Both the position numbers and the translations under genes were made by a program. Below the pieces are notes generated by a model, which was given only the letters and a program-made list of their open reading frames with translations, was not told the DNA's origin and did no database searches. 64,000 bases of DNA, from the NCBI GenBank assembly GCA_021774575.1, contig JAJFIX010000007.1, positions 62,001-126,000 of the forward strand, given 5' to 3'. How positions within the stretch are numbered: position 1 is the first letter of the stretch; each line of letters begins with the position of its first letter. Positions 12,227 through 59,139 of this stretch are shown here, piece by piece. Source of the stretch: Alphaproteobacteria bacterium. Lineage in GTDB: Bacteria; Pseudomonadota; Alphaproteobacteria; UBA6615.

Positions 12227-12390
12227 GAGCGTAATTTATAACGAATTACCTGAATGAGCGATGAACGGTTGCGTCGGCTTGGGCCAGTGGCTTTACATCT
12301 GGTGGGTTTACATCCTAATGCGTCTATTTTAAGCAACAAAACGAGTTGGCGAAAGCCAGCTTCCTCAATTACCCGCAAATGGGGGTGCAA

Positions 12391-12846
12391 ATGGTCGGTT
12401 TTATATCGCGACTAAGCGGCGGAAAAGCCGCTTTACAGACCGAACATCAAATCGCCGGCCCTGCCGACGTGCCTCTTTCGGGCGTAACCGAGGCGAACCA
12501 GGCCGGGGCTGGACGGGCCAAAAGCGGTTCATTTATCTCAAATGGCCTGGACGTCGTCGGCAATATTGAGAGCAAGGGCGATATCGAAATTTGTGGACGG
12601 GTCACCGGCGATGTCACTGGCCGGGGTATTTTGCTGGCCGCCACCGGCATTGTCGAAGGATCGATAATTGCCGATACTATTGACGTTCTAGGTCACGTCA
12701 ACGGACCGATTACAGCGATTACAGTGACCCTGCGAGCCGATTCTAGGGTGACCGGCAAGATCACGCACCACGAAATAATTGCGGATAATGATGCGGTAGC
12801 CGAGGGGCTTAAACCGTGGCAACCGTTGCAATTCTTCACCGGTTAA
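12391..12846 (+). CDS. bactofilin family protein
   Basis: About 151 residues, a polymer-forming cytoskeletal protein built on a right-handed beta-helix. The ATG at 12391 is preferred because GGGGGTG lies just upstream; ATG 12379 and TTG 12346 are in-frame alternatives. The core shows repeating hydrophobic/Gly turns: LDVVGNIESKGDIEICGRVTGD, then GIVEGSIIADTIDVLGHVNGPI and SRVTGKITHHEI, as expected for the bactofilin domain. Bactofilins form filaments without nucleotide and position cell-wall or polysaccharide enzymes. A second, more strongly basic-tailed bactofilin follows 299 bp downstream in the same direction. Confidence 0.85.
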   Translation: MVGFISRLSGGKAALQTEHQIAGPADVPLSGVTEANQAGAGRAKSGSFISNGLDVVGNIESKGDIEICGRVTGDVTGRGILLAATGIVEGSIIADTIDVLGHVNGPITAITVTLRADSRVTGKITHHEIIADNDAVAEGLKPWQPLQFFTG

Positions 12847-12902
12847 CTGGTCGATCCGAGCTTTGCCTTTGGATTTCATCCACCTCATTCACGTAATTTA
12901 CT

Positions 12903-12925
12903 AAAAAAAAGAGTCCGGCGACTCC
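12903..12925 (-). terminator. intrinsic-terminator-like hairpin reading leftwards between the bactofilin genes
   Basis: Read on the minus strand, GAGTC-GCCG-GACTC is followed directly by eight T residues, a compact Rho-independent terminator shape. No minus-strand gene lies to its right: both neighbours are plus-strand genes. It may end a small antisense or intergenic RNA that starts between about 12,930 and 13,140, or it may be chance. The same interval also has a tandem repeat of about 18 bp (GACAGGGAACGC twice, near 13,036-13,072). Confidence 0.35.
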
Positions 12926-13145
12926 GTGTCGGTGGGGAATCTATACGCAGACTGATTGCTGCCCGGTTGCCGAAGAGATATCCTGGTGGCGGAGATCAGG
13001 CGGCGCGGTATCCAAGATCACGGTCGTCCACACTGAGACAGGGAACGCTGCGGGACAGGGAACGCCGCTGGAAAATGCGATTGGTGAGTGTTAGCTGGGA
13101 CACGGGTCGTCGCCCCGGCAGTCATTGAAGGGAGCAGGAGGTTCC

Positions 13146-13775
13146 ATGTTTTCAAAGTCAGAAAAATCCACGCCACAAAATGCCGGACCGGTTACGAGCG
13201 AACCCAGCGCGCGCGGGCCGAAGGGATCACCCAAGCCGACGAATGTGCCGTCGATTGTCAGCCAGGATATGCGGGTCATTGGCAGTCTAAATAGCGACGG
13301 CGAAATTCAAATTGACGGACAGGTCGAAGGCGATATCAGTGCTAAATTTGTTACAATTAGTCCCGACGCCTTGATCGAAGGTTCGATCACAGCCGAAACC
13401 GTCCATGTCAGCGGCACCGTATCGGGCCAAATTGATGCCACCTCGGTGGTTATTGCAAAGCAGGCGAAAATCAAGGGTGACGTGCTGCATCAAACCATTG
13501 CAATTGAATCCGGCGCCTATATCGAAGGGTTTTGCCGGCCGCGCGGAACAAATGGCACGGTGGTTGAAAGCGCGCCGACGAAGGCCTCTCAACCAACTAC
13601 CCTTCGGCCGAAGCCATTGAAGACCGCAGTGAAAGCAACGCAAACGCCGCAAAATACCGGCGATAAGGACCTTCTTGCCGAAGGGGCGCCTTTTGTCAAA
13701 GTCGCTGACCTCAAATCTGCTGCAGCCGATAGCACGCCAGAATCCGTGGCCGCGCGGCTCACCAGCCGAAACTAA
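13146..13775 (+). CDS. bactofilin family protein with extended C-terminal tail
   Basis: A 209-residue protein. The ATG at 13146 has an excellent GCAGGAGG ribosome site; an upstream TTG is disregarded. After a polar N-terminus the bactofilin beta-helix runs from about residue 38 (MRVIGSLNSDGEIQIDGQVEGD) through LIEGSITAETVHVSGTVSGQID to ESGAYIEGFCRP near residue 130. The remaining roughly 75 residues are a disordered, Lys/Pro/Thr-rich tail (KASQPTTLRPKPLKTAVKATQT), likely used for partner binding. The paired arrangement with the preceding bactofilin suggests co-polymerisation, which is inference. A strong terminator follows. Confidence 0.88.
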   Translation: MFSKSEKSTPQNAGPVTSEPSARGPKGSPKPTNVPSIVSQDMRVIGSLNSDGEIQIDGQVEGDISAKFVTISPDALIEGSITAETVHVSGTVSGQIDATSVVIAKQAKIKGDVLHQTIAIESGAYIEGFCRPRGTNGTVVESAPTKASQPTTLRPKPLKTAVKATQTPQNTGDKDLLAEGAPFVKVADLKSAAADSTPESVAARLTSRN

Positions 13776-27541: not shown

Positions 27542-28676
27542 ATGCGTCTGACTGATCTCGCGATTAAGACATTGCCACTGCCACTAAGTGGGCAGAGGGC
27601 GTACTGGGATGACCGGACCCCTGGATTTGGAATTCGGATTTCGCAAGGTGGCGCTCGCTCCTTCGTCGTGATGTATGGTGACCGAAGACGGCTGAAGACG
27701 ATCGGGCGATATCCAGGCTTGTCGCTTGCGGGCGCACACAAGGGGCGCGGCGGCTGTTAGCGGTCTATTCGTCAGATCCAGAGCCGAAGCGGACGATGAG
27801 TTACGAGACGGCGGCCACTGTCTTCTTAAATGAGTGGCGCGACAGAACACGACCGAAGACGCTAATAGGATACAGGCTCTATCTTAACCGGTTCGGTTTT
27901 CAGAAGAATGTCTCGGAAATCACTCGAGGCAATATCCATAGCGTTCTGGCCATGCTCAAAGATAAACCGGCAGCCCAAAATCAAGCCTTCACGGTAATGC
28001 GGTTGTTCTTCAACTGGGCGCTCCGAAATGAGCTTGTCGACAAACATCCAATGCGTGGTGAGCGCCGACCGGCCACGGTTTCCTCGCACGATCGGGTGCT
28101 AACCGAACCGGAATTGACCGCAGTGCTCTGCGGGGCGACAAGCTGTCCTTTCGGCACGATCGTCAGGCTGCTAGTCCTGACCGGGCAGCGCCGTGGCGAG
28201 ACCGGTGCCTTGCGGTGGGATCGGATTGACGAAGAGGAGCAGCCAATCAACCTTCCCTCATCCACTACCAAGAATAAGAGGGCCCACAACTTCCCCTATG
28301 GCAGTCTGACGAAGTCTGTTCTGGCTGCGATTCCGCGTTGTTCGCCTCTCCTCTCCTCTCCTCTCCTCTCCTCTCCTCTCCTCTCCTCTTCGAATCCGAC
28401 GAAGGCACAGCATTTTCGGCGTGGAGCAAGTCAAAAAGACACTTCGGCAAGCAGGTTGAAATTCCAGCGTGGACGTTGCACGACCTACGTCGGACTTTTA
28501 GTTCCACCCATGCCATGCTCTGCACACCGATTCACGTAACCGAAAAATTGCTCAACCACGTCTCGGGCAGCGTATTTGGCGTTGCGGCGATCTATAACCG
28601 CCACAGCTATCTGAAAGAGATGCGGGCGGCTGTGGAGACATATGAGGCCTATATTGCTAATCTAGTGCCGCTCTAG
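27542..28676 (+). pseudogene. P4-type tyrosine integrase, broken by two frame disruptions
   Basis: The N-terminal arm-binding (DUF4102-like) domain is read from 27,542 (MRLTDLAIKTLPL, DRTPGFGIRISQGG, TIGRYPGLSLA). The frame is lost at the G-run 27,742-27,745, where one extra G would restore ARRLLAVYSSDPEP. The core-binding and catalytic parts then run from about 27,750, including box I (LTGQRRGETGALRW). A tract of nine CCTCT units at 28,345 shifts the frame again. Box II follows intact in the third frame (LHDLRRTFSS, LLNHVSG, YNRHSY with the Tyr). All catalytic residues survive, so inactivation is probably recent. It sits beside the broken tRNA, as expected for a P4-type integrase. Confidence 0.85.
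28345..28389 (+). repeat. pentanucleotide tract (CCTCT)9 inside the integrase gene
   Basis: Nine perfect copies of CCTCT occupy 28,345-28,389. With two copies the reading would be CSPLLFESDEGTAFSAW, which joins the integrase halves smoothly, so two is probably the ancestral number. Any number equal to 2 modulo 3 (2, 5, 8, 11) keeps the frame; nine does not. Such tracts change length by strand slippage. Confidence 0.9.
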
Positions 28677-56812: not shown

Positions 56813-57014
56813 TTGTCTCCAATTATATGGGTGCCGGTAAGCTCTTCGATGATCGTATGACAGCAAAGCGGTGTCGAATTCAATCAACCGTGCGGCTATA
56901 TTTGGATTGCAGGCCTGTCCTTCGACGATCGCCCCCGGTAGAATTCTTGCAAACAAGATCTCCGGCTGTACGACTGCGTGACTGTACCAATAGTTGAAAA
57001 TAAGGTGGAACGCC

Positions 57015-57389
57015 ATGCGGCAAGGTCGACTTCGATATTTGGCCTTGGGGTTATGGCTTTTGGCTGTCGGCGGCGTGGCAATTTTTTCCTTATTGCCGCA
57101 ACTGGCGCCACCTGCAGACCACCATTTCGATAAAATATTGCATTTTGGCGTTTATTTTTCACTTGCTGGGTGGGCCGCGATTACCCTGAAACGGGTGGCG
57201 CCGGTCTTGATCGCCGCGCTGTTTCTAACCCTGATCGGCGTGGCGGTCGAGGTTGCCCAGGGATTTGTTTTGGGCCGCATGGGGTCAAGCGCCGACGCAC
57301 TAGCCAACGCCAGCGGCGTGGCTGCGGCAATTTGTATCAAATTGATCGCAGGCCGCTTCTCCCGTGCATTTTGGCGCCCGCCAGAGTGA
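57015..57389 (+). CDS. VanZ-like family membrane protein
   Basis: A 124-residue membrane protein, start ATG 57,015 after AAGGTGG; an upstream TTG frame is rejected. It has about four hydrophobic segments and the VanZ-type signature DKILHFGVYFSLAGWAA, with AVEVAQGFVLGRMGSSADALANASG in the second half. VanZ-like proteins are common beside polysaccharide loci; their biochemical role is not established. Five palindromic repeats begin directly after its stop codon. Confidence 0.8.
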   Translation: MRQGRLRYLALGLWLLAVGGVAIFSLLPQLAPPADHHFDKILHFGVYFSLAGWAAITLKRVAPVLIAALFLTLIGVAVEVAQGFVLGRMGSSADALANASGVAAAICIKLIAGRFSRAFWRPPE

Positions 57390-57398
57390 AAATTTGAT

Positions 57399-57529
57399 CA
57401 CAAATTTGTGAAATACCTCGTATTTTGTCACAAATTTGTGAAACACTTCCTAATTGAGCACAATTTCGCAAACAATTCGCAGTTGATCACAAATTCGTGA
57501 AGCATTTCGCAATTAATCACAGGCTTGTG
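57399..57529. repeat. five palindromic 12-bp boxes at a 30-bp step
   Basis: Box 1 (57,399) and box 2 (57,429) are the perfect palindrome CACAAATTTGTG. Box 3 (57,459) is CACAATTTCGCA, box 4 (57,488) CACAAATTCGTG and box 5 (57,518) CACAGGCTTGTG. Steps are 30, 30, 29 and 30 bp. Each box is followed by GAAATAC/GAAACACTT-like and TTGATCA/TTAATCA-like flanks that also repeat. The array ends 143 bp before the sugar-transferase gene. A multi-site operator is the simplest reading. Confidence 0.85.
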
Positions 57530-57672
57530 AAACACTTGTTAATTGAATCGACTCAAACTCGGTGGGATAGTCTGAACTCCAATAGTCGATGTTCGTCAAT
57601 TAGGGCTAGCTCCGGTGAAGGTTTGCTTGAAACCTCCGAACTGGTGGCCGTATATGAGGTTCTAACAGAGTT

Positions 57673-59139
57673 ATGGTCTTGGCGGGGTTGCCCTCCAGAA
57701 ACCTCCCCGGGTATCGGGGTGTAAAGCTTTCGGCAGGCCAAAAATGGCGCCGGACACTTGCCAAATCGATAACACCGAAGATGATCTCCGATCTGTTCGC
57801 GTTTAGCGACGCTGCGGTTATTTTGATAGCTTCGGTGTTAGCCAAGTACATTTATCTCGACCTTTATCTGGGTGCCTTTCCGGCGCTCGGCGAATATCTA
57901 ACCATTGGCATCGTCCAAGCGGTTCTTGCGGTGATCTTGTTTAAAAGACGGGGCCTATACGAAGTTGATATATTTCGAGAGGGCATACCGTTTGGGATCC
58001 GCTCCGTGTTCGTCGCGCTGTTCCTATCTTTCGTATTGCTGATCGCGTTCGGCTATTTACTCCATGTAGCGCAAGTTTATTCGCGTGGCTGGATAGTCGT
58101 TTGGGGCGGCTTGAGCTTGATCGGCGTGGTTGGCGTGCGGGCCACTGGTGCCGGGATCCTTAGGGCGCTCGTCCGCCGGGGCTATTTCAATCGGCGCATT
58201 GCGGTTTTGGGCAGCAAGCAAAACTGCCGGTCCTTTGTCGAATCGCTTGGGGTTATTGGGTTCGAGAACATCGGCGTGTTTGGCGATAGCGATGACGACG
58301 AAAAAGGGGGGCTGAGCGATTTAATGGATCATTGCCTTTCCAACCCGGTCGACACCATCGTCGTGACGACGCCTCCCTCAGAGCACAATAAAGTCGCACG
58401 CATAATTAGTGAATTCGCCCCGTTGGCCACCCATGTCTGCCTCCACACCGATTTTATTGGCAGGCATCTACAGCGCGCTGCCATTCGCCGCCTCGGCGAC
58501 ACAAATGTGATTGAAATCCAAAATTCCGCGCTAGTGGGATGGAACGTCTGGCTAAAGCGGGGCATCGATATCTGCATCAGCGCCCTGGCTTTGCTTGCGC
58601 TGGCACCGTTGTTCGGCTGCATCGCCTTGGCTATCAAACTGGATAATGCTGGTCCGGTATTCTTCCGCCAGAGGCGGCACGGGCTCAATCACCGAATTAT
58701 CAGCGTAGCTAAATTTCGCTCCATGACTGTGCTTGAGGACGGGACCGCCACTTCCCTAAAGCAGGCGACGAAAAACGATGCCAGAGTCACTCGGGTGGGA
58801 CGGTTTTTGCGCAAAACCAGCCTCGACGAATTGCCGCAGCTATTCAATGTTCTTGTTGGTGACATGTCACTGGTTGGGCCGCGACCCCATGCCCTGGTTC
58901 ATAATAATGAGTACGGCCGGATCATCGAGCACTATGCCAACCGACACAAAGTCCGGCCCGGTTTGACCGGTTGGGCTCAGGTCAATGGCTGGCGGGGCGA
59001 AACGGCGGATCCGGAAAGAATGAAGAAACGTGTTGATTTCGATTTGGAGTATATCGACACCTGGTCCGCGTGGCTGGATTTAAAGATTATTTTCTGGTTA
59101 ACCGGGAACGCCTTGTTGAAAGGCGAGAACGCTTACTAG
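57673..59139 (+). CDS. undecaprenyl-phosphate sugar phosphotransferase (WcaJ-like polyprenyl glycosylphosphotransferase)
   Basis: A 488-residue membrane enzyme that starts repeat-unit assembly by transferring a sugar-1-phosphate to undecaprenyl phosphate. Several N-terminal hydrophobic segments and a CoA-binding-like central domain ([27 protein letters not shown]-like) precede the C-terminal catalytic domain. That domain has [21 protein letters not shown] as its re-entrant membrane helix, then [48 protein letters not shown] and [15 protein letters not shown]. This is the priming enzyme for the polysaccharide pathway. The ATG at 57,673 fits the hydrophobic start. The repeat array lies upstream. 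Confidence 0.92.

Follow-up and report, generated by a model that had tools for sequence, protein, structure and literature searches.

The multi-site operator is a familiar kind of feature, in which tandem inverted repeats, with half-site centres about one helical turn apart, stand before a key gene and serve dimeric helix-turn-helix regulators; a half-site spacing of about one helical turn fits a dimeric protein of this kind. In alphaproteobacteria, the XRE regulators PraR and CdxA control surface and adhesion genes. Adhesion, surface and symbiosis genes are under the control of PraR homologues (PMC4149787, PMC10688885). SELEX gave CAAC-N5-GTTG as the PraR consensus, and the reb promoter of Azorhizobium carries three PraR sites (both PMC5527310).

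The locus described here lies in a 64,000-nucleotide stretch of an alphaproteobacterial genome, hereafter the window, within the gap between a VanZ-like gene and the gene of a priming sugar transferase. It shares with the described operators the tandem inverted repeats, the half-site spacing and the position before a key gene, and differs from the usual ones in having five sites, a 30-bp step and repeated flanks, and in that its sites are not aligned along a single face of the helix. The PraR consensus differs from the box of this array, although a homologue of these XRE regulators is encoded 15 kb away. The features, in window positions, were as follows.

56994–57389, plus strand: gene of a VanZ-like membrane protein, ending 8 bp before box 1 (PF04892 below cutoff, NF037970 above cutoff)
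57394–57546, no strand: tandem array of about 5.1 units of 30 bp, consensus TTGATCACAAATTTGTGAAACACTTCGTAA (Tandem Repeats Finder score 138, with shuffle controls)
57398–57411, no strand: box 1, perfect palindrome TCACAAATTTGTGA
57428–57441, no strand: box 2, perfect palindrome TCACAAATTTGTGA
57458–57469, no strand: box 3, degenerate GCACAATTTCGC, with a one-base deletion
57487–57500, no strand: box 4, TCACAAATTCGTGA, 6 of 7 pairs
57517–57530, no strand: box 5, TCACAGGCTTGTGA, 6 of 7 pairs, arms TCACA/TGTGA kept, centre altered
57543–57571, plus strand: weak sigma70-like candidate TTGAAT-N17-GATAGT (8 of 12 positions matching), abutting the array end; speculative
57627–57656, plus strand: alternative sigma70-like candidate TTGAAA-N18-TATATG (9 of 12 matching); speculative
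57673–59139, plus strand: undecaprenyl-phosphate glucose phosphotransferase (WcaJ type), presumed controlled gene (TIGR03023, PF02397, PF13727)

The array consists of about five head-to-tail units of 30 bp, each with a central box of the form TCACA-N4-TGTGA. The five boxes reported in the earlier note were found, with the two perfect 12-bp palindromes CACAAATTTGTG at 57399 and 57429, both of which extend to the 14-bp palindrome TCACAAATTTGTGA. A clear palindromic core is present in four of the five repeat copies. Box 3 is barely palindromic (4 of 6 pairs) and gave the lowest unit score in the profile search (18.8 bits); in box 5, the centre AAATTT has become AGGCTT with the arms unchanged. The centre-to-centre steps measured 30, 29, 30 and 30 bp, against the 30, 30, 29 and 30 given before, the difference being the placement of the one-base deletion in unit 3. 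Where the earlier note had boxes with partly repeated flanks, the 30-bp unit repeats in full, and the array is not a set of five boxes in unrelated spacers. The array shares with CRISPR arrays short repeats at a regular step and differs from them in the lack of unique spacers, the repetition of the full unit and a likeness between units of only about 70%, so it was correctly held not to be one.

The array is genuine and far removed from random expectation. It is the top tandem repeat of the window (5.1 copies, period 30, 70% matches, score 138). Its self-identity at lag 30 was 0.63, and 5000 dinucleotide-preserving shuffles never exceeded 0.47, whichever lag between 15 and 60 was taken. A score for periodic palindromes reached 30, with none of 300 shuffles going above 24, and the repeated inverted half-sites exceeded chance expectation in both Tandem Repeats Finder and the shuffle controls. 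An 11-bp sub-period (0.42) stayed within the shuffle range. With 10.5 bp per turn, the box centres point at 0, −51, −137, 171 and 120 degrees, i.e., they rotate by about 51 degrees per step, and they come into phase only with a helical repeat near 10.0; the proposal that the boxes share nearly the same helix face is thus poorly supported.

The array occupies most of the AT-rich gap (33.5% G+C vs 53% for the window) between the VanZ-like stop codon at 57389 and the transferase ATG at 57673, which lies 143 bp past the last box, in agreement with the distances given earlier. The identification of the neighbour as a priming sugar transferase also held, with a TIGR03023 score of 444 bits above the cutoff of 410.75. 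A divergent calcineurin-like phosphoesterase gene precedes the VanZ-like gene, and the transferase is followed 3' by genes of a BBP2_2 beta-barrel protein, a Wzc-like chain-length/tyrosine-kinase protein and a 221-aa protein with no Pfam match; past the window edge, a Wzy-like ligase, a PEP-CTERM/EpsE-like export protein and further proteins are encoded in the same cluster. No clear promoter was found in the gap, only the two weak sigma70-like candidates, and no ORF spans the array, which excludes a coding repeat.

The same genome carries a paralogous polysaccharide cluster on another contig (C16:55000-64800, L099) with identical gene order: phosphoesterase, VanZ-like, WcaJ-type transferase, BBP2_2-like, Wzc-like and 221-aa-like protein, named by similarity to the window translations. 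The two transferases are 61% identical across the protein. The VanZ–transferase gap of the second cluster, about 90 bp long, contains no such boxes, and therefore the array belongs to only one of the two cluster copies. A 12-bp match, AATTGAATYGAC, after VanZ in both paralogs was considered as a common promoter end and was rejected, as 417 of 1000 shuffles gave an equally good one.

Throughout the 3.5-Mb genome, the exact motif TCACA-N4-TGTGA occurs at four sites, three of them within the array, and the reversed control pattern at none. The earlier note had suggested a scan for further box sites across the genome; for the exact motif, only one, at C25:448926, lies outside the array. Likewise, searching with a 30-bp profile made from all five units recovered only those five with E below 0.01, so the array is a single-copy feature, restricted to one promoter region, and not a dispersed or mobile repeat. 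Allowing two mismatches gave scattered single sites; those examined were mostly intragenic, and the one at C16:83189 (L100:9189-9202), TCACGAAATTGTGA, stands alone some 100 bp ahead of a large glycosyltransferase gene and was also the best profile match beyond the array (12.2 bits, E 0.9). One-mismatch boxes, this single site included, were dismissed as further sites: that at C25:275414 overlaps nothing but a doubtful ORF that closely follows a methylase gene, and those at C31:223840 and C37:13743 lie within similar coding sequences and are probably homologous codons. No other promoter in the genome, a regulator's own included, was found to carry a convincing group of these sites, a recurrence to be expected of many but not all operators.

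Additionally, exact and near-exact patterns, which diverged arrays could escape, revealed no comparable array in 24 family, 385 class and 398 phylum genomes; with paired-box patterns, the 385 class genomes gave one unrelated single box. Paired perfect boxes were absent from viral contigs, and a plasmid or phage origin was set aside: plasmids gave no match, and phages just one of 26 bp, put down to chance. No transferase ortholog was present in 24 genomes of the order, the best match apart from the paralog in the same genome being 35% identical, and the related transferase loci, including the alphaproteobacterial L069, carry neither VanZ nor the array. A literature search for the box sequence and related terms found nothing relevant.

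Where a chain of such sites lies just ahead of a gene, an operator or activation region is the simplest reading, and we give slightly better than even chances to the array serving a dimeric DNA-binding protein as a private multi-site operator, or an upstream activating array, of a single promoter. The array, its periodicity, its inverted half-sites, its position and its restriction to this promoter are observed; protein binding, its cooperativity, the promoter position and the sense of the control we infer. One dimeric helix-turn-helix protein would recognise TCACA-N4-TGTGA, several dimers could bind adjacent sites upstream of or over the transferase promoter, and their joint binding might result in sharp switching, by repression or activation, of transferase transcription. 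The non-random periodic palindromes, the kept arms of box 5 and the location before a gene of the committed step of polysaccharide synthesis speak for the operator, as do the AT-rich setting, the presence of three of the genome's four exact sites in the array and the lack of coding sequence, Rfam match and dispersed copies. Position and repeated inverted half-sites are best fitted by the multi-site operator that the earlier note had proposed; a regulator, a regulon and a conserved orthologous array were not found. The claim is further weakened by the paralogous cluster, which presumably works without the array, by the column conservation of the boxes (0.76 vs 0.66 for the flanks; permutation p = 0.15, not significant with only five units), by the drift of about 51 degrees, a less than ideal arrangement for neighbouring dimers to cooperate, and by the unclear promoter. 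The nucleoid-type regulator suggested earlier found no support. The patterns TGTGA-N6-TCACA, TTGAT-N4-ATCAA, TTAA-N7-TTAA and WATCAA-N4-TTR, taken for CRP/FNR, CtrA and IHF, had no exact match on the plus strand of 57381-57673, where the first three are palindromic and the IHF pattern was scanned on that strand only.

The conservation values leave a decaying tandem duplication (minisatellite), in which a 30-bp AT-rich intergenic stretch holding a chance palindrome was multiplied without any regulatory role, as a serious rival, and the main one, since conservation in the boxes is not shown to exceed that in the flanks. We regard it as possible, if on the whole improbable. It accounts for the repetition of entire units, and the lack of the array in the paralogous cluster and in all other searched genomes is what a local, recent or neutral event would leave. 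At the same time, the two perfect 14-bp palindromes have persisted though the units differ elsewhere, and it is suggestive that the array lies directly before the transferase. Moreover, the units are merely 60–83% alike, with no gradient by distance, so the array is not recent. An action in RNA appears unlikely. In this reading, boxes 1 and 2 would form a hairpin of 14 bp following the VanZ stop, which would affect how the transcript between VanZ and the transferase is terminated or processed, or how stable it is. These boxes do form the only centroid helix, with a folding z-score of −2.0, but self-complementary DNA sites pair automatically in RNA, units 3–5 add no consistent structure, and the array has no T tract, no terminator call and no Rfam match, the last of which also removes a known RNA family from consideration.

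As to the protein that the proposed operator would bind, a gene on the same contig, 15 kb downstream, encodes an XRE protein with a detected HTH_3/XRE domain (L101:14739-15131, minus strand), which we take from its sequence to be PraR-like; it adjoins tRNA-Lys and lies outside the window (L101:14739-15207, i.e., C43:134738-135206). That the boxes are operators of this repressor seems very unlikely, in spite of its nearness to the cluster and of the inverted repeat CACAATCG-N14-CGATTGTG in its own upstream region, one half of which resembles the box half-site. This repeat may be due to chance, the genome holds six matches to the protein, itself included, and CAAC-N5-GTTG, whose spacing differs from that of the boxes, is absent from 57381-57673; because of this absence, the gene is only a lead.

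A bolder form of the operator reading, in which a previously undescribed regulator gives one of the two paralogous polysaccharide clusters its own sharp switch through a dedicated single-promoter TCACA-N4-TGTGA array, is put forward tentatively and is rather doubtful. If the array is an operator, it would show how duplicated polysaccharide clusters in one bacterium come under different control, with the same genes in the same order and a five-site control region on just one of them, and it could serve as a ready bait for the regulator. As a neutral repeat, the array would matter little.

Elsewhere in the window, nine exact CCTCT repeats (28345-28389) lie in a tyrosine-recombinase-like ORF (27796-28539) and are a candidate slippage or phase-variation tract. 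Two adjacent genes at 12346-13775 appear bactofilin-like, as judged by eye from their translations.
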